Of a stretch of DNA of 64,000 nucleotides, positions 52,915 to 62,338 are shown piece by piece (the stretch's first letter is position 1; each line of letters begins with the position of its first letter). Made by a program: the position numbers and the translations under genes. This stretch comes from Gammaproteobacteria bacterium RIFOXYD12_FULL_61_37 (GTDB lineage Bacteria > Pseudomonadota > Gammaproteobacteria > Chromatiales > Chromatiaceae), in assembly GCA_001801995.1 (NCBI GenBank), contig MGZB01000055.1:187978-251977 (forward strand). The letters run 5' to 3'. The notes beneath the pieces are model-generated. The model did no database searches and had not been told where the DNA came from. It saw only the letters and a list, made by a program, of their open reading frames with translations.

Positions 52915-54435
52915 ATGCCTTTTCACCTGATTTCCATGACTCCCGATGATCTTATCCGGACCTTGGCCGAACGATGGGCTGTCCAGGAGGTGCCCGGCCG
53001 GAAGGTCGAGGGGGTCTATTTCGATACCTTCGATTGGCGGCTCTATCGCGAAGGCTTGGCGCTTTTTGTTGGCAGGGAGGGTGGCGAGCAGGTCTGGTCT
53101 CTGATGGAACGGCAGTCGGGACGCATCCTGGCCGTCTGCCGAAACGATGGGGAGCCGGGGATGGCTTCGTCGCTTCCCGAACCCATGGGGTCGCGGTTGG
53201 GGCCGCTGATGGAGATGCGGCGGTTGTTGCCCCAGGTGCCCGTTGCCGGTGATTTGCGCCTTTTCAGCTTGCTGAATGAAGACGGAAAAACGGTGCTTCG
53301 TCTTGAATGCCAGGAAAGCCCGGCGAATCTCCCGCCGCTGGTGAGAATTTTGCCCCTTCGCGGATATGAAGACGAGGCACTGGCCCTGGAGCAGAGGCTC
53401 AGGGAAGAGGGCGCGCGGGAAGTTTGTCCGCTGGACGAGGCCCTTGCCGCCCTCGGCAGGCGGGGCGGCGATTACAGCTCCAAGCTCAATTTCGCGCTGC
53501 AACCCCATGAACGGGCCGATCTTGCCGCCAAACATATCCTTCTGCATCTGCTGGGAACCATCGAGGCAAACGTCGAGGGGGTCTGCAATGATACGGATTC
53601 GGAGTTTCTGCATGATCTTCGGGTCGCGGTGCGCCGGACCCGTTCGGCCCTGACGCAGATGAAGGCGGTATTCGAGGCCGGTGCCGTCGAGCGCTACAAG
53701 GCCGAGTTCGCCTGGCTGGGCCAGGTTACGGGTCCCGCCCGCGATTGGGATGTCTTTCTGCTCAAGTTCGAGGACTATTCAGCAAATCTGCCCAGCGGCT
53801 TCCGGGAAGCCCTGGCTCCTTTCCATCGCTACCTGGAACAGCATCAGGCCAGCGATTACCGGCTCCTGGCGGATCATCTCCGGTCCGGGCGTTTCCGGTC
53901 GCTGTTGCAGGAATGGCGCGGCTTTCTCGAATCGCAGCCATCGGCCGCCACCACACCGGCTAATGCCGGGCTCAGCGTCAAAGAGGTGGCCAGCGCCCGC
54001 ATCCATAAAATGTATCGGCGTGTCATGAGGGAGGGCAGGGCGATCGGCGACGAATCCCCGGCCGCCGAGTTGCATGAACTGCGCAAGAGCTGCAAGAAAC
54101 TCCGTTACCTGATGGAGTTCTTCCAAAGCCTCTATCCGGCTGGGCGGATCGGCGGTCTCATCAAGGCCCTCAAGACCCTGCTCGACAAACTCGGTGACCA
54201 TCAGGATCTCCAGGTACAGGCCGGGAAGCTGGAAGCCATGGCGGGCGAGATGCGCAGGTCGCGTGCCGGAACCCAGACCCTGCTGGCCATGGGTATGCTG
54301 ATCGGCGAGCTGTCGCAGCGGCAACGGGCGGAGCGGGTGCATTTTTCCGCCGCGTTCGCTCAATTCAGTCAGGAACGGAACCGCGAACTGTTCAGGGAAC
54401 TGTTCCGGAGCAACAAAGAGGAAGTCTCGGGATGA
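52915..54435 (+). CDS. CHAD-domain protein with CYTH-like N-terminus
   Basis: The 506-residue protein has an N-terminal part (to about residue 190) that resembles a degenerate CYTH/triphosphate-tunnel domain (VEGVYFDTFDWRLYREGLAL). A CHAD domain of two four-helix repeats follows, each with the conserved basic motif (LHDLRVAVRRTRSAL and LHELRKSCKKLRYLMEFF). CHAD domains bind polyphosphate through these histidine, arginine and lysine residues and are found on polyphosphate granules. The stop overlaps the ParA-like gene by ATGA. No good ribosome-binding site precedes ATG 52915, and the ATG 21 nt later is an alternative start. Confidence 0.85.
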   Translation: MPFHLISMTPDDLIRTLAERWAVQEVPGRKVEGVYFDTFDWRLYREGLALFVGREGGEQVWSLMERQSGRILAVCRNDGEPGMASSLPEPMGSRLGPLMEMRRLLPQVPVAGDLRLFSLLNEDGKTVLRLECQESPANLPPLVRILPLRGYEDEALALEQRLREEGAREVCPLDEALAALGRRGGDYSSKLNFALQPHERADLAAKHILLHLLGTIEANVEGVCNDTDSEFLHDLRVAVRRTRSALTQMKAVFEAGAVERYKAEFAWLGQVTGPARDWDVFLLKFEDYSANLPSGFREALAPFHRYLEQHQASDYRLLADHLRSGRFRSLLQEWRGFLESQPSAATTPANAGLSVKEVASARIHKMYRRVMREGRAIGDESPAAELHELRKSCKKLRYLMEFFQSLYPAGRIGGLIKALKTLLDKLGDHQDLQVQAGKLEAMAGEMRRSRAGTQTLLAMGMLIGELSQRQRAERVHFSAAFAQFSQERNRELFRELFRSNKEEVSG

Positions 54436-55175
54436 CGATCATCGGTGTCTACAACATCAAGGGCGGCGTCGGCAAGACCGCCACCGCAGTCAACCTGAGT
54501 TACCTCTCGGCCAAGGCCGGCCTGCGGACACTGCTCTGGGACCTGGACCCCCAGGGGGCCTCGACCTTCTACTTCCGCGTCAAGCCCAAGATCAAAGGGC
54601 CGAAGAAGCTGGCGCGGGGCGAACGCGACGCCGGCGAGGCCATCAAGGCAACCGATTACGAGGGGCTGGACCTGTTGCCGGCGGACTTCTCCTTCCGCAA
54701 TCTCGATCTGCTGCTGGAGGACCAGAAGAAACCGGCAGGGCGCCTGCGCAAGCTGATCAAACCCCTGGAGGACGAATACGACCGCATCTATCTGGACTGC
54801 CCGCCCAGCATTTCCCTGGTCTCCGAGAACGTCTTTCTGGCCTCCAGCGCACTGGTGGTGCCGATCATTCCCACCACGCTCTCCCTGCGGACCCTGGGTC
54901 AGATTACGGAATTTCTCGCCGGCCGTGAATTGGGCGAGATGCCCGTCTGGCCGCTGCTCTCCATGGCGGATCGGCGCAAGCGCATGCACATGGCGGTGCT
55001 GGAGCACCCCCCGGCCAATGCCTTCGAGACGGTCATCCCCTATGCCAGCGATGTGGAGCGGATGGGCGAGTACCTTCAGCCGGTGGCGGAGTTCTCTGCT
55101 GCCGGTCCTGCCGCACAGGCCTATCAGGCGTTGTGGCAAGAGTTGGAGCACCGCTTGGCCCTGGCCATTACTTGA
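54432..55175 (+). CDS. ParA-family partition-type ATPase
   Basis: The 247-residue ATPase has the deviant Walker A YNIKGGVGKTATAVNLSYL at the N-terminus, switch I LLWDLDPQGAST and Walker B-type YLDCPPSIS. It is an orphan: there is no ParB or plasmid partition gene nearby. It is translationally coupled (ATGA) to the CHAD protein. ParA-like proteins of this kind position cargo such as carboxysomes or chemotaxis arrays on the nucleoid. Positioning polyphosphate granules here is an inference. Confidence 0.85.
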   Translation: MTIIGVYNIKGGVGKTATAVNLSYLSAKAGLRTLLWDLDPQGASTFYFRVKPKIKGPKKLARGERDAGEAIKATDYEGLDLLPADFSFRNLDLLLEDQKKPAGRLRKLIKPLEDEYDRIYLDCPPSISLVSENVFLASSALVVPIIPTTLSLRTLGQITEFLAGRELGEMPVWPLLSMADRRKRMHMAVLEHPPANAFETVIPYASDVERMGEYLQPVAEFSAAGPAAQAYQALWQELEHRLALAIT

Positions 55176-55250: not shown

Positions 55251-55421
55251 ATGAATAGTCCAGAGACGACAGAAGCCTTGTTGGCCTGTGAGGTTTGCAT
55301 GAAGGAGGTCCCTCGCTCGGAGGATGTCTCTGACGAGGGGCGCGACTACGTGCTTCACTTTTTCGGTGTCGATTGTTACGACCAGTGGAAGAAGGTGGGT
55401 CCGGAGCCCAGGGAGGAGTAA
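55251..55421 (+). CDS. Small DUF3330-like protein
   Basis: A 56-residue protein starting at ATG 55251 with GGAGG 8 nt upstream. It has CEVCMKEVPRSE and, later, HFFGVDCYDQW, a small cysteine-containing motif resembling the DUF3330 proteins seen next to mercury-type transposons. A strong terminator follows at 55443, so it may be expressed with the ParA-like gene. The function is unknown. Confidence 0.7.
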   Translation: MNSPETTEALLACEVCMKEVPRSEDVSDEGRDYVLHFFGVDCYDQWKKVGPEPREE

Positions 55422-57506: not shown

Positions 57507-57590
57507 TCATTGCATCCTCCAGGCTTTGTACCCGATAGAACAAAGAAATAGGCCAATGCCCGACCACAGGCCGAACGCAAAAAATCGCAG
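57507..57590 (-). pseudogene. C-terminal fragment of a small membrane protein (cassette remnant)
   Basis: On the minus strand, directly after palindrome copy 1, an open frame reads FAFGLWSGIGLFLCSIGYKA and ends at TGA 57507-57509. It is a hydrophobic C-terminal tail whose N-terminus has been replaced by the palindrome. Confidence 0.4.
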
Positions 57591-57654
57591 AATTACGGTG
57601 ACACTTTACTAAATACACTCGATAAAGTGTATTTAGTAAAGTGTCACCGTAATT
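57591..57654. repeat. 64-bp palindromic element, copy 1
   Basis: 29-nt arms starting AATTACGGTGACACTTTACT and ending in its exact inverse, with the loop CGATAA. Two further copies lie at 59211 and 60107. The element ends a few bases from the DUF2971 stop codon and abuts the membrane-protein fragment. Confidence 0.9.
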
Positions 57655-57671
57655 ACCGTAATTTAGGTCTT

Positions 57672-58451
57672 TTAGACGTAGCCACAGTCATACCTTTCAA
57701 CCATGCACATGCCGATGTTGATGGCTGCCAACGCGGTGCGGTTAAGCTCGTTGCATTTGGGGCCAAGCCATATCTCTGGAATTACCACGGCCATGCTCGA
57801 AATCGCTTCGTTGTCTTCCCAGAAATTTGCCTCGGTATATGGAATCAAGAGTTGGTTAGAAAGGCGCATCTTCACAGTGCCATGATCAACTGACTGGACT
57901 GCACGTACTTCCTGTTCCTCGACGAACGCCGGGTTCTTTAGGGCTATGATGTCTTTGACTATGGCCGAGAAATTTTCTTTGTGCTGATTGATCCATTCCA
58001 TGAAGCTGTTTTCGGCAGGGTTGTCGAGTCTCGCTTGATGTACTGAGTCAGCAAATGAAGCGTATTTTGTAGCAAGTTCCTGTGCGTAGGTTTCATGATT
58101 CTCATACTGACAATCCACGAGATCAATTTTTGCGAACTTCAAAAAGAGATCATCAAACCCAATGGCAACGCCGGTTCCGTCAGCCGCATACGCTCGCCAT
58201 TGACTGAGAATTTTTGGGGATTTCGACATGCTGAGCACACAATGATGGGTATTCATACCGTGCCAAAGAAAGGCTCTTTCGAATGATTCCCGTTTCTCTA
58301 CTGCCAGATGCGCCAGGAGCGCTGATAAGCCTTGCTTCAATTCTTGCTTGTCATTCAGGAAGCGATAGTCGGTAAGCCAAACCCTACGGGACGTAATGAT
58401 GCCGAGACATCCGGCTATAGTGGTGTAGTGATAGTAAATGGGACGGCTCAT
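57672..58451 (-). CDS. DUF2971 family protein (integron cassette)
   Basis: The 259-residue product begins IYYHYTTIAGCLGIITSRRV with WLTDYRFLNDKQELKQG, the N-terminal signature of DUF2971, and has LSQWRAYAADGTGVAIGF and an EEQEVRAVQ segment further on. DUF2971 proteins are frequent in integron cassettes and mobile islands, with unknown activity. It is the leader-distal cassette here, preceded by a good attC at 58464-58529. Its own 3' attC is replaced by palindrome copy 1; only an ACCTAAA, perhaps a degenerate R'' core, remains after the stop. Confidence 0.75.
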   Translation of the reverse strand: MSRPIYYHYTTIAGCLGIITSRRVWLTDYRFLNDKQELKQGLSALLAHLAVEKRESFERAFLWHGMNTHHCVLSMSKSPKILSQWRAYAADGTGVAIGFDDLFLKFAKIDLVDCQYENHETYAQELATKYASFADSVHQARLDNPAENSFMEWINQHKENFSAIVKDIIALKNPAFVEEQEVRAVQSVDHGTVKMRLSNQLLIPYTEANFWEDNEAISSMAVVIPEIWLGPKCNELNRTALAAINIGMCMVERYDCGYV

Positions 58452-58463
58452 AGAGGTACGATG

Positions 58464-58529
58464 ACCTAACGTGGAGTTGAGCGGCCTGCGCGGCTTTTCG
58501 CGCAGGTCCGCTCGAACGCAGGGTTATGC
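58464..58529 (-). other. attC recombination site
   Basis: The core sites ACCTAAC and GTTATGC bracket a 66-bp imperfect palindrome with the stem GCGGCCTGCGCG-GCTTTT-CGCGCAGGTCCGC. The stop codon of the 58524-59108 gene lies inside the core. The inner 30 bp match the attC at 59841-59920 almost exactly. Confidence 0.85.
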
Positions 58530-59108
58530 CTTCCTTTCACTCGCCAAGCTCCAAACGGATATCTGTCTGATTGCGTCATGGTGTATGCCGCGAACGACCT
58601 TCCCCTCTGTCTCTAAAGCGCTAAGCAGGCGCATAGCATGCTGTTTCGCAATATCTAGCTCCTGTGCAATTTGGCTTATGTTCATAGGGCCAGCGCCAAG
58701 AAGGTCCAATATCTGCTGCCCTCTCGGAGAAATGCTTATGGACTTAATGACCTTTTCGAGCTGGTTAGACGCTGCTTCAATTTGCGTTGGCGTAAGCGGA
58801 CTGGCGCCGCTTATGGGATTAGATAGAGTTTCAATAAATTTCGACTTAACAGACTTAACAGAGAGACGAAGCGACTCCAAATACATAGATTCATCCTCGA
58901 AATCGCCAGGTGCGTATAGGACAGTATGGTTCCAGTTGAGTACCGCGAAGAAGAGCAAGACGATCAGCGTAGGAAAGGCCATTACAAAGTACACGAACAA
59001 GTGCTGGATTTCGCTTGGCACATTGACCAGTGCGTAGGTTGCAAATGCCTCTGCAAGACCCGCGAATATTGCTACCACCGTCAAAGGATTACTGACTTTT
59101 GCACTCAT
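58524..59108 (-). CDS. Membrane protein with winged-helix domain (integron cassette)
   Basis: The 194-residue protein has two predicted transmembrane helices (about residues 8-28 and 36-60: VVAIFAGLAEAFATYALV; VYFVMAFPTLIVLLFFAVL). A cytosolic part follows whose last 70 residues look like a MarR/ArsR-type winged helix (ILDLLGAGPMNISQIAQELD, AMRLLSALETEGKVVRG). A membrane-tethered transcription regulator is one reading. It is a cassette gene of unknown function, preceded by the attI-like sequence at 59144 and followed by the attC at 58464. Confidence 0.6.
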   Translation of the reverse strand: MSAKVSNPLTVVAIFAGLAEAFATYALVNVPSEIQHLFVYFVMAFPTLIVLLFFAVLNWNHTVLYAPGDFEDESMYLESLRLSVKSVKSKFIETLSNPISGASPLTPTQIEAASNQLEKVIKSISISPRGQQILDLLGAGPMNISQIAQELDIAKQHAMRLLSALETEGKVVRGIHHDAIRQISVWSLASERKA

Positions 59109-59143
59109 GTCTCATTCCGGGAAGAGAGGCCAATTGGAAGGCA

Positions 59144-59210
59144 TAACGTGAAATAGACGACACGGATCGTAACGCCTCATGCCGCCTGAATCAAACCTTA
59201 TCTACATAAG
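59144..59210 (-). other. Second copy of the integron attI sequence inside the array
   Basis: 67 bp identical at 65 positions to 61230-61296, the region between intI and the first cassette. On the minus strand it ends in ACGTTATGCC, a recombination core, directly before the 58524-59108 cassette. On its other side the identity stops exactly where palindrome copy 2 begins. Confidence 0.8.
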
Positions 59211-59592
59211 AATTACGGTGACACTTTACTAAATACACTCGATAAGGTGTATTTAGTAAAGTGTCACCGTAATTGTCCGTAATTGTCTGACCCCGTGCTT
59301 TGGTTTTGGGCCAACGTCTCGGATTGTGGGCATCATGCAACACGGCCAATACATGTACGAGATCGCCCCGTACCGCATAAAACAAACCGTATGGAAACCG
59401 AGGAAGGAGAGATCGGCGAACACTGGGAATTACCTCAGCATAAAGCAGAGGCGCGTGTTCTAGCCGTTTTAACTGCAATTCCATTGCCGCAATGAATTCT
59501 TCACCGAGACCGGTGTTCTGCAATTCGTACCACTCTCGAGCTTCGCCGATTTCGCGTAACGCTCGCGAAGAAAATTTTAGGCGGAACGCCAT
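59191..59592 (-). CDS. RelE/ParE-family toxin with C-terminal read-through extension
   Basis: The conserved toxin fold spans about 95 residues (FSSRALREIGEAREWYELQN, AVIPSV-like VIPSVRRSLLPRFPYGLFY, VLHDAHNPRRW). After NPRRWPKTKA, where ParE proteins normally end, the frame continues through palindrome copy 2, adding about 35 residues (including VYLVKCHRN) before the stop. The extension is probably a by-product of the palindrome insertion. It overlaps the antitoxin gene by 16 nt and belongs to the same cassette. Confidence 0.8.
   Translation of the reverse strand: MAFRLKFSSRALREIGEAREWYELQNTGLGEEFIAAMELQLKRLEHAPLLYAEVIPSVRRSLLPRFPYGLFYAVRGDLVHVLAVLHDAHNPRRWPKTKARGQTITDNYGDTLLNTPYRVYLVKCHRNSYVDKV
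59211..59274. repeat. 64-bp palindromic element, copy 2
   Basis: The same element as at 57591, with one substitution in the loop-proximal part of the right arm. It lies between the ParE-type toxin gene and the internal attI copy, and supplies the C-terminal codons of the toxin ORF. Confidence 0.9.
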
Positions 59593-59810
59593 GAGCCATT
59601 TTTAAGGTGTGATTTAACTTGATCCCAGGAATAACCAGCATCCGGGTTTGCCTCAAATTCCTCCAAGCGCACTTCGAGCTTGGCCTTTAGCGCAGGAGAA
59701 ATTTCCACAGCTTCAGGAACAGCCGCAACGCTATCCCAGATTAGCTCGACAAGATGAATGCGTTCTTGTACCGGAAGCTCAAGAATGTCGGAAATAGAGA
59801 TGTTGTTCAT
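59577..59810 (-). CDS. Addiction-module antitoxin (ParE partner)
   Basis: The start is ATG 59810 (MNNISISDILELPVQERIHL); the long upstream ORF start is spurious. The 77-residue protein is of the putative addiction-module component family, with IHLVELIWDSVA and FEANPDAGYSWDQVKSHL. The order antitoxin then toxin, with overlapping ends, is usual. It sits 30 nt after the attC at 59841, as expected for a cassette gene. Confidence 0.82.
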   Translation of the reverse strand: MNNISISDILELPVQERIHLVELIWDSVAAVPEAVEISPALKAKLEVRLEEFEANPDAGYSWDQVKSHLKNGSWRSA

Positions 59811-59840
59811 GCTTGATATTGTACACTTTTTCGGGAAACG

Positions 59841-59920
59841 CATAACGTGGAGTTGAGCGGCTGTAGGGGAGCGGCCTGCGCGGCTTTTCGCGCAGGTCCG
59901 GTGCATTGCAGGGTTGGGGC
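59841..59920 (-). other. attC recombination site
   Basis: 80 bp from CATAACG to GTTGGGG. It shares AACGTGGAGTTGAGCGG and the GGCCTGCGCGGCTTTTCGCG stem-loop with the attC at 58464. It follows the stop of the CPBP fragment and precedes the antitoxin gene. Confidence 0.85.
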
Positions 59921-59922
59921 GC

Positions 59923-60106
59923 TCATGCGTCTTTGGCCACCAACAAGGCAGCCAGCAGGTTGTTCGCAATATGAGCAGCCACTGAAGGCCAGATGGATGC
60001 GCTTCTTGCGTAAAGCGCACCTGCCAACAGACTGAAAACGAAGACGCCGCCGACGTTGAAAAGAACCGCTGGAGCAGCGCCGGCATGTGACAGCCAGTAC
60101 GGCAGG
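59923..60106 (-). pseudogene. C-terminal fragment of a CPBP-type intramembrane protease (cassette remnant)
   Basis: After palindrome copy 3 the minus-strand frame reads FNVGGVFVFSLLAGALYARS, then IWPSVAAHIANNLLAALLV, and stops at TGA 59923-59925. The HIANN motif with its histidine is the last conserved motif of CPBP (CAAX-protease-like) membrane proteins. The N-terminal two-thirds are missing and replaced by the palindrome. Confidence 0.65.
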
Positions 60107-60170
60107 AATTACGGTGACACTTTACTAAATACACTTCATAAAGTGTATTTAGTAAAGTGTCACCGTAATT
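60107..60170. repeat. 64-bp palindromic element, copy 3
   Basis: Same arms as copies 1 and 2, with a TCAT-type loop variant. It lies 8 nt from the half-attC GCCCAAC (60178-60184) and truncates the CPBP fragment. Confidence 0.9.
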
Positions 60171-60204
60171 CCTATTCGTTGGGCGTCTGTGCCAAGGCGA
60201 TGGA
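60171..60204 (-). other. Half attC site interrupted by palindrome copy 3
   Basis: On the minus strand the antitoxin stop is followed by GCCCAAC, an R'' core, but the rest of the attC and its GTTRRRY partner are absent. Palindrome copy 3 begins 8 nt further on. Confidence 0.5.
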
Positions 60205-60543
60205 TTAGCGGTCTGATGTAGCGCGACGTTTTACTGCGGGCTTGCGAGTTGCACTAGTGACGGACCCCGGCCGCTCTGAAAGGCGACCAGTAACATATTT
60301 ATGCAAAACGCTAGCAATTAGCGTTTGGTACGGCAGACCTTCCTCTAAAGCCTTGACCTGAATATCGTTCAGATCTCCCGAAGACAGGCGGATATTGACC
60401 CGGCGATCCTTGATTGCGGTGGCACGCGCGGCAGCCTTGAATTTGGCAAGTTCAGCTTTCGTTGCGACGGACTTCAGTTGGCCTTTCTCGAAGGCGCTCA
60501 GCACTTCGAGTTCGTATTCATCAATTTTCGGCATCTGGCTCAC
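60205..60543 (-). CDS. CopG/BrnA-like antitoxin (integron cassette)
   Basis: The 112-residue protein has a C-terminal ribbon-helix-helix-like segment (RRVNIRLSSGDLNDIQVKAL, then LPYQTLIASVLHKYVTGRL) and a basic tail. It overlaps the BrnT-like toxin gene by 23 nt in the order toxin then antitoxin, which is the brnT-brnA order. The MSQMPKIDE start at 60543 or the ATG 9 nt later are both possible. Confidence 0.75.
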   Translation of the reverse strand: MSQMPKIDEYELEVLSAFEKGQLKSVATKAELAKFKAAARATAIKDRRVNIRLSSGDLNDIQVKALEEGLPYQTLIASVLHKYVTGRLSERPGSVTSATRKPAVKRRATSDR

Positions 60544-60814
60544 CTTGATTCAGATAGTCCCGAGTAGCCTTGCGGCTCGGGATCACGGTCTTGAGGAAAA
60601 AGTAATCTTCTTCCTCGACGAACGGCACCAAGTAGGCGTAGTTGTCGCACGAGACGACAAGAACGCGCTGCCTTGGATATTTCGACTGGTTCGGGTGGGC
60701 CAAGATGTCCAGCAACCCCCCGGACTCGATGGCGACCACGATGTTCTCAAACGAAATGCCCCGCTCAGACGAGAGCGTTTCATTCTTCTCTGCGTTCCAG
60801 CGAAATGGTTTCAT
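60521..60814 (-). CDS. BrnT-like toxin (integron cassette)
   Basis: The 97-residue product begins FRWNAEKNETLSSERGISFE, the BrnT pattern (F-W-x-x-x-K-N ... R-GISF), and continues QRVLVVSCDNYAYLVPFV with a charged C-terminus. BrnT is a RelE-fold ribonuclease neutralised by BrnA. It shares a cassette with the antitoxin at 60205, typical of toxin-antitoxin pairs that stabilise integron arrays. Confidence 0.72.
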   Translation of the reverse strand: MKPFRWNAEKNETLSSERGISFENIVVAIESGGLLDILAHPNQSKYPRQRVLVVSCDNYAYLVPFVEEEDYFFLKTVIPSRKATRDYLNQGEPDAEN

Positions 60815-60879
60815 GGAGCCATCTTACGCCGATGTGTGCCTATTGTCACCACAGGCTCAAGACGAAGCGATTGTTAGGC
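60815..60879 (-). other. Degenerate attC site
   Basis: On the minus strand the zinc-ribbon gene ends in GCCTAAC (60879-60873), a good R'' core, but no clear GTTRRRY partner is found before the BrnT-like ATG at 60814. The site may be inactive or truncated. Confidence 0.4.
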
Positions 60880-61214
60880 ATATGCCTGCACCAGAAGAAA
60901 ACCGGCCAGCGGCACTAGAGCAAACAGCAGAACAACGCCAAGGCAGCCAGACCTAGAACCGCCAGCAGAGGAGAAGCGCTCGCGTTCTTGTGGCGGTCTG
61001 GATTGAAGCCATTTGGAATGGCATGTCTGGCAGAAGAATTGGGTTTTGTTGTTGCGCCACGCCTCGATAGTCCGCTCGGTATGCCGCGACACAGCACCAC
61101 AGCGGGCGCATTTGAAATGTGATTCTTTGGCTGTCGTTTCGGCATGAGCTTGCCAACCAAGAACAAGACAACAATGCCAACAATTACAGCTCCGATGATG
61201 AGTTCTGGTGACAT
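60874..61214 (-). pseudogene. Zinc-ribbon membrane protein gene with frameshift (first cassette)
   Basis: ATG 61214 gives MSPELIIGAVIVGIVVLFLV and GKLMPKRQPK, a good N-terminal transmembrane helix. Near 61126 the coding signal moves to another frame, which reads HFKCARCGAVSRH, then FFCQTCHSKWL (a CxxC...CxxC zinc ribbon), then a C-terminal hydrophobic helix, ending at the attC core. Neither frame alone makes a sensible protein, so a 1-nt change at about CCAAAGAATC is likely. It is the first cassette next to attI, so it would be the most strongly expressed if intact. Confidence 0.55.
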
Positions 61215-61226
61215 TGGGTTTCCGAT

Positions 61227-61296
61227 GCCTAACGTAAAATAGACGACACGGATCGTAACGCCTCATGCCGCCTAAATCAAACCTTATCTACATAAG
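61227..61296 (-). other. Integron attI site
   Basis: Between the integrase start and the first cassette. On the minus strand it ends ATTTTACGTTAGGC, a recombination core like that of attI1. A near-identical 67-bp copy is at 59144-59210. The cassette promoter would be expected here or in the adjacent intI 5' region. Confidence 0.7.
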
Positions 61297-61357
61297 CACA
61301 TGATGATAAAACATTTATCCGTTGCGCCGCATAATAACACATCCTAAAATAACGCGG

Positions 61358-62338
61358 ATGGAAGTTAAAGTCGTTTCTCAACAATCGCCAAAGTTACTGG
61401 ACCGGATGCGGGCCGAAATCCGGCTGCGTCATTACAGCATCCGCACGGAAGAGGCCTATGTGGATTGGTCTCGGCGCTACATCTTGTTCCACAACAAGCG
61501 ACATCCCCAGGAGATGGGCGCCGAAGAGGTGACGGCCTTTCTCTCCCACCTGGCGAATGAGCGGAATGTCTCGGCCTCGACGCAAAATCAGGCGAAGTCG
61601 GCCCTGTTGTTCCTTTACCGGGAGGTGATTGGGATCGAATTGCCCTGGCTGGATGAGGTGGTTGCGGCCAAGGTGTCGCGGCGTCTGCCGGTGGTGTTGA
61701 CCCAGACAGAGGTGCGCCGTTTGCTTGAGGCGACTTCGGGGACCATGGGTCTTGTGATCAGTCTGCTGTACGGGACGGGAATGCGATTGTTGGAGGGGCT
61801 GCGGCTACGGGTGAAGGATGTGGAGTTTGAGCGCCGGGAGATCATCGTGCGCGAGGCCAAGGGCAACAAGGACAGGGTGACGGTGCTGCCGGAGAACCTG
61901 ATCCTGTCGCTGAAGGCGCATCTGGAAAAGGTGAAGGCGTTGCATGAAAAGGATCTGGAGGCGGGCTGGGGCGATGTCTATTTGCCGGATGCCCTGGCGG
62001 TAAAGTACCCGAACGAGGCCAAGGCTTGGGACTGGCAGTATGTGTTTCCATCGCCGGTGCGGTCGGTCGATCCGCGCACGGGCAAGGAGCGGCGGCATCA
62101 CCTGTACGAGGCCAGCGTGCAGCGGGCGGTGCGGGAGGCAACGAAGCTGGCGAATCTGGTCAAACCGGTAACGCCCCATGTCTTGCGCCACTCGTTCGCC
62201 ACCCATCTGTTGCAGGCGGGTTACGACATCCGCACGGTGCAGGAGTTGTTGGGTCATAAGGATGTGCAGACGACGATGATCTATACCCATGTCCTGAACA
62301 AGGGCGGGCGGGGTGTGGTGAGCCCGTTGGACCGGTGA
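61358..62338 (+). CDS. intI: Integron integrase IntI
   Basis: The start is ATG 61358 ([20 protein letters not shown]), giving 326 residues as usual for IntI; the TTG 36 nt upstream is less likely. The tyrosine recombinase residues are present: Arg in [13 protein letters not shown], HxxR in [12 protein letters not shown], His in LLGHKDV and Tyr in TMIYTHV. The IntI-specific insertion is clear ([17 protein letters not shown], then WQYVFPS) and distinguishes it from XerC/D and phage integrases. It is divergent from the cassettes, which lie to its left on the minus strand. Confidence 0.93.

Follow-up and report, generated by a model that had tools for sequence, protein, structure and literature searches.

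Several systems described in bacteria bear on the locus analysed here. McdAB, which positions carboxysomes, combines a ParA-type ATPase with a cargo-bound partner, and ParABS, which segregates chromosomes, relies on an ATPase of the Soj/ParA type with parB beside parA. The known partners of ParA/MinD ATPases have been described as carrying a positively charged, disordered N-terminus (PMC10241942). For polyphosphate (polyP) granules, even spacing has been reported to involve AlgP of Pseudomonas aeruginosa, a histone-like DNA-binding protein for which the accessible part of PMC9239181 describes no ATPase, and in the portion available of a 2025 review AlgP stands alone for polyP in the table of positioning systems, whether polyP positioning spends energy being said to remain to be seen (PMC13052382). 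CHAD domains are known from two further proteins. CtCHAD of Chlorobium tepidum (PDB 6QVA/6QV7) was crystallised with polyP (6QVA; PMC6537752) as a construct comprising residues 208-522 of UniProt Q8KE09, hence studied without its N-terminal domain, and ParA is not discussed in the accessible text of that paper. Escherichia coli ygiF is a TTM-CHAD polyphosphatase (5a60) in which the CYTH domain precedes the CHAD domain. In Acidithiobacillus, a folD-ppk-parA-CHAD cluster brings ppk together with a parA and with a gene for a CYTH/CHAD or CHAD protein; this adjacency has been read as cAMP signalling (PMC6416229) and has also been noted in a copper-resistance study (PMC10892726), with no positioning role given in the accessible parts of either. 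In the open-access literature searched, which leaves most subscription journals outside, the adjacency is in print for Acidithiobacillus only, without a positioning model, and a proposal that ParA and CHAD proteins act together in positioning was not found.

The window, that is, the whole stretch of 64,000 nucleotides that was analysed, carries a gene pair of this type (Table 1). The preliminary description had reported that a CHAD gene and a parA gene share an ATGA overlap with no ParB gene nearby; ORF coordinates and Pfam bear out the former, and the latter holds as well, since both ParB_N matches of the genome lie on contigs C1 and C13 and none on the contig of the pair, C55. The parB gene that stands beside parA in ParABS is thus missing from the window pair. 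A point overlooked in that description is the CYTH/TTM fold that precedes the CHAD domain. NCBIfam returned no model matching the CHAD protein and none up to the cut-off on the ParA. The genome encodes one CHAD protein and one PPK1, the latter on a contig other than that of the pair. Just downstream of parA lies a gene for a small DUF3330 protein (55251-55421), and farther on, at 57589-62338, an integron-like stretch of lower G+C content, which contains an integron integrase gene (61322-62338; TIGR02249, E 7.8e-142), three near-identical 66-nt repeats, palindromic by eye, and a duplicated 70-nt repeat between small genes. The window also has a gene for an addiction-module component (59577-60134; NCBIfam TIGR02574, E 4.7e-18) and, beside it, a small gene (59191-59592) that resembles RelE/ParE toxins by eye and received no NCBIfam name.

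Table 1. Features of the CHAD-ParA gene pair, in window coordinates.
Feature	Position	Strand	Basis
Gene for the CYTH-like + CHAD protein, 506 aa	52915..54435	+	ORF list; CHAD E 3.7e-62; Foldseek
CYTH/TTM-like N-terminal domain, residues 1 to about 190	52915..53484	+	Recognised by fold only
K125 codon (in ...GKTV...)	53287..53289	+	Residue alignments
G150-Y151 codons (in ...RGY...)	53362..53367	+	Residue alignments
CHAD domain, residues 208-439	53536..54231	+	Pfam PF05235
ATGA overlap, CHAD stop and ParA start	54432..54435	+	ORF coordinates
Gene for the ParA-family ATPase, 247 aa; its subfamily is separate from chromosomal Soj	54432..55175	+	Pfam (AAA_31, E 1.5e-33; CbiA); tree; fold
Deviant Walker A codons, KGGVGKT	54459..54479	+	Within the ParA gene

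The ParA of the pair belongs to a subfamily of its own, apart from the chromosomal Soj. When 106 members were placed in one tree with 18 Soj proteins of the relatives, the Soj proteins fell on one side of a branch with an SH-aLRT value of 100, and in the 112 related genomes full-length members score at least 187 bits, against 94 bits or less for other ParA proteins among the matches listed. The ATPase motifs and the fold are nevertheless shared with ParABS: K10, G11, G12, G14, K15 and T16, which form the deviant Walker A motif KGGxxK[T/S], are invariant in 58 aligned rows, as are D39 and other ParA residues, and the predicted model (pLDDT 91) has the ParA/Soj fold, with TM scores by query of 0.85-0.89 against the top-ranking Soj and ParA chains. 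McdA is found among the fold matches, further down than these chains, and its sequence score is likewise below that of Soj. The pair also departs from McdAB in its partner protein, a folded CYTH-CHAD protein whose proposed cargo is polyP.

The pairing of CHAD with this ParA is conserved, beyond chance. In the 112 relatives, where subfamily membership was set at 137 bits or more, CHAD is found directly upstream in 42 of the 45 matches, and at these 42 loci the CHAD domain ends 180-270 bp before ParA on the same strand; six ParA matches of other kinds, passed through the same script as a control, gave no upstream CHAD. The latter half of a gene that is split in G037 gave one more row, which was left uncounted, and the exceptions are a locus on G003:C82, a fragment in G064, and G093, in which the subfamily ParA is present and CHAD is absent. 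At the best 30 loci, the window's included, the two genes overlap by 4 bp in 23 cases and by 1 bp in three. A scan of one genome per species yielded at least 80 loci with named hosts, and CHAD is adjacent in 60 of the best 80: in 59 it lies at most 400 bp upstream, and at L070 the adjacent sequence is a CHAD fragment. According to record titles and NCBI ranks, these named loci belong to Pseudomonadota, Actinomycetota, Chloroflexota, Acidobacteriota, Planctomycetota, Calditrichota, Dormiibacterota, Myxococcota and Thermodesulfobacteriota, single phyla among which may be binning errors because many of the loci come from metagenome bins. A full-length CHAD protein is encoded elsewhere in 14 of the 20 genomes that lack adjacency (E 1e-148 or better; for L118 this protein may be a copy 4 kb downstream). 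It was not found in the genomes of six of the best 80 named loci, namely a Thermoleophilaceae bin, where ParA sits at a contig end, Chromohalobacter, an Ardenticatenia bin and three Bacteroidota. In these Bacteroidota (L120, L126 and L128) the ParA gene is retained with a conserved gene nearby, whose product of about 243 aa may be another partner or cargo. In a Bacteroidota-centred set of 345 genomes, full-length subfamily matches score at least 268 bits and others at most 162 among the matches listed, and CHAD is adjacent in 22 of the 30 loci taken, with an adjacent fragment at L155. In family f1, the CHAD protein model matched in 134 of 210 genomes and ParA in 96, and a reading of the two lists shows that 95 of these 96 also match CHAD. 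The survey of CHAD-ParA adjacency that had been suggested, with non-conservation as the outcome that would overturn the proposal, was run, and it found the pair conserved both in relatives and in named loci.

The CHAD protein was modelled with a pLDDT of 95 as a CYTH/TTM fold followed by the CHAD domain. The latter matches 6qva with a TM score of 0.93 by target length (Foldseek), and the chain crystallised from Chlorobium tepidum can be linked to the pair directly: a protein of 522 aa from the genome G227 is identical to it over the 312 residues matched and has a ParA gene directly downstream of its own, and on the strength of this identity we take G227 to be C. tepidum. CtCHAD thus shares the architecture of the window's protein and is likewise encoded next to a ParA. 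Six residues were mutated in the part of PMC6537752 available; they sit at their published numbers in the G227 ORF, and their counterparts in the window's protein, H233, R236, R240, R276, R397 and Y398, are all intact. With a CHAD domain and the polyP-contact residues both present, as in CHAD proteins that bind polyP (phosins), the protein probably binds polyP.

The N-terminal tunnel fold is recognised by Foldseek matches to 2een, 7nsd and 5a60, and it is visible by fold only, as the Pfam CYTH model matched none of 84 aligned members, in all of which the CHAD domain was found. ExExK is the catalytic motif of CYTH/TTM enzymes. Among the 138 aligned CHAD proteins that have their N-terminus in view, 137 lack it, including that of the window, which differs in this from E. 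coli ygiF despite the common domain order and fold; the sole bearer is L134, a distant protein without ParA, and 22 further rows begin at the locus edge and are uninformative on this point. In the model the domain is folded almost from residue 3, and DSSP places K125 in the turn that joins strand 105-120 to strand 126-134, and G150-Y151 after strand 142-147.

What distinguishes CHAD proteins with a ParA from those without lies mostly in this N-terminal part. Of 52 columns conserved in at least 90% of the rows with ParA, only K125, G150, Y151 and F484 drop below 60% in the 26 full-length rows without it, while the six polyP residues stay in 26 of 26. K125 is a lysine in all 130 ParA-bearing rows against 6 of 26 ParA-less rows, and G150 a glycine in all 130 against 14 of 26; residue 151 is Y in 117 of the 130 (F in 12, and H in one, L077) against 1 of 26. 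The full signature, with Y or F at 151, is intact in 129 of 130 and in 1 of 26, respectively. The ParA-bearing rows comprise 77 adjacent, 22 Bacteroidota-set, 14 unlinked and 17 further family rows, with 127 distinct C-terminal sequences. They include L266, whose contig ends shortly after CHAD and whose genome gave no ParA match, and they represent L118 by the CHAD of its genome (L187), its own copy being left out. CHAD stretches shorter than 440 aa were excluded from the residue alignments, and stretches of 400 aa or less (L283, L284 and L285) from the reading of ParA-less rows; L138, L134 and L137, which are cut by a contig end or are distant proteins, belong to neither side of the comparison, and L135, whose genome has the paralogous ParA, is likewise in neither side and is counted as ParA-bearing among the 71 rows below. 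The 39 CHAD genomes of f1 without ParA consist of 26 with a full-length protein, 11 with short CHAD only and two cut by contig ends. A loss of the CYTH-like domain in the 11, in which only short CHAD was seen, was considered and dropped, because separate short CHAD genes coexist with the pair in several genomes, G022 and G056 among them. A C-terminal segment was also considered as the main ParA contact and rejected: it belongs to the CtCHAD construct that was crystallised, and most of its conserved columns persist in rows that have lost ParA, F484 (13 of 26) being the exception.

On the tree the association is strong in pattern and thin in independent events. Among 71 f1 rows, 45 have ParA and an intact motif, 25 have neither, none has ParA with the motif lost, and one, G551, keeps the motif without ParA, on a short branch beside a ParA-bearing sister. 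The tree requires five changes of ParA and four of the motif, and provides four supported independent contrasts, three for the association, none against and one neutral (sign test p 0.25). All 14 unlinked CHAD proteins keep K125, G150 and Y151, which argues that the tie to ParA is not only operon inertia.

The reverse case is provided by seven paralogous pairs, in which the polyP contacts of CHAD have decayed and K125, G150 and Y/F151 are kept in seven of seven. R236 is replaced by L in six and R240 by V in the seventh, R390 is changed in all seven, and at position 397 six have G and the other has S instead of R; H233 and R276 are retained. These CHAD proteins form one clade in the CHAD tree (support 99), as do the six paralogous ParA rows present in the ParA tree (support 99). 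Together with the ParA-less rows, the paralogous pairs indicate that two functions separate: the CYTH-like part carries the one that goes with ParA, and the CHAD domain the one that goes with polyP. At one locus (L042, G037:C1:4492996-4495035) the second, paralogous ParA gene is split, its pieces lying about 1.3 kb apart beside an intact paralogous CHAD gene.

Judged from these sequences, it is fairly probable that the pair forms a system dedicated to the positioning of polyP granules. The CHAD domain would grip polyP, as published for its homologue in C. tepidum; the CYTH-like domain, catalytically dead, would dock on ParA through K125 and the G150-Y151 loop and would stimulate its ATP hydrolysis; and nucleoid-held ParA-ATP would space the granules and share them between daughter cells by a diffusion-ratchet scheme, as its family membership suggests by comparison with ParABS and McdAB. 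The outcome proposed is that reported for AlgP. Direct contact with ParA, ATPase stimulation, nucleoid binding, and the movement and position of granules are what we infer from sequence. A folded domain would here serve in place of the disordered N-terminus of the ParA/MinD partners described in PMC10241942, which is both a difference and a risk for the proposal. The preliminary description had suggested that the pair distributes polyP granules at division. Its choice of cargo is well supported, as the homologous C. tepidum domain binds polyP in the crystal, the contact residues are intact, and genes of polyP metabolism stand beside the pair in some lineages, the window and most loci not among them; ATPase-driven movement or spacing, and the timing at division, we infer only.

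The neighbouring genes were searched with single-sequence seeds and compared with 18 Soj loci and 15 arbitrary loci, which come from the window's relatives and G227 and not from the genomes of the named loci. PPK1 was found at six of the best 80 named loci, at none of 13 wider loci of the relatives and at all six loci of G227 and its near kin, which are one lineage, against 0 of 18 and 0 of 15 control loci; taken by themselves, the named loci do not differ significantly from the controls (6 of 80 and 0 of 33, p 0.18). At least one gene of the set PPK1, PPK2, PPX, PstS and Na/Pi was found at 11 of the best 80 named loci (p 0.18 for these by themselves), at 2 of the 13 wider loci, PstS or Na/Pi genes in both cases, and at all six loci of the G227 lineage; among the controls, none of the 18 Soj loci and one of the 15 arbitrary loci had such a gene. 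A SixA-type phosphatase occurs at 14 of the best 80 and 3 of 13 wider loci against 0 of 33 controls (p 0.009 for the named loci); L228 (G151), outside this search, has only a SixA-type gene. PPK1 lies upstream of the pair in G227, on the same strand with one ORF between, and a Calditrichota contig (L121) carries PPK2-CHAD-ParA-PPK1-PPX on one strand. No polyP, phosphate or SixA neighbours were found within the roughly 14 kb searched around the window pair, nor at six CHAD loci without ParA or at most pair loci. Other genes seen by eye near ParA are a glycogen phosphorylase-like gene at eight of the best 80 named loci (L057, L069, L071, L072, L085, L092, L097 and L130) and an MgtE magnesium transporter-like gene at five (L062, L081, L093, L097 and L114).

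In some lineages the pair is linked to PPK1, PPK2 and PPX, which suits metabolic control as well as positioning, and ParA might accordingly be a switch, whose ATPase cycle, acting through the CHAD protein on the surface of the granule, would sense or control the synthesis of polyP or access to it, with no movement involved. We regard this as unlikely, given that the nearest fold relatives of the ParA are Soj-type segregation ATPases and that any third gene in the neighbour clusters recurs at 16 of 96 loci at most. Somewhat less likely still is a static tie of polyP to the nucleoid or chromosome, either as a tether or as granule-chromosome coupling, without an ATP-driven ratchet: AlgP, PhaM, PhaF and PhaH, the positioning proteins known for polyP and PHB, are nucleoid tethers according to the available part of PMC13052382, yet a tether needs no ATPase, and K10, K15 and D39 are invariant. 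That the adjacency is merely historical, two unrelated genes having been transferred together without any physical partnership, would agree with the genomes that carry one gene without the other, and appears quite improbable in view of the CYTH signature kept in unlinked pairs, of its decay being confined to rows without ParA, and of the paralogous pair forming one clade in both trees. Least credible of all, a role of the CYTH-like part as a class IV adenylate cyclase or polyphosphatase in a signalling operon, for which the CYTH fold and, in the accessible part of PMC6416229, the folD-ppk-parA-CYTH/CHAD neighbourhood and conserved active-site residues of Acidithiobacillus would speak, was rejected because, apart from the distant, ParA-less L134, ExExK is absent from all aligned proteins with the N-terminus in view, an alignment in which the Acidithiobacillus proteins are not included.

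Returning to positioning by the CHAD-ParA pair, we lean slightly towards the broader view that a widespread ParA system positions polyP granules in several phyla, that the dead CYTH domain has become an ATPase-docking adaptor acting through its KTV and RGY loops, and that a second, co-duplicated pair has lost the polyP site and may carry another cargo. The spacing and inheritance of polyP granules in bacteria are largely open questions, for which the pair offers a concrete ATPase candidate, present also in the presumed C. tepidum, whose CHAD domain already has a structure in complex with polyP. If the proposal is true, a role would also have been found for a CYTH domain that sits on a CHAD protein without its catalytic residues.
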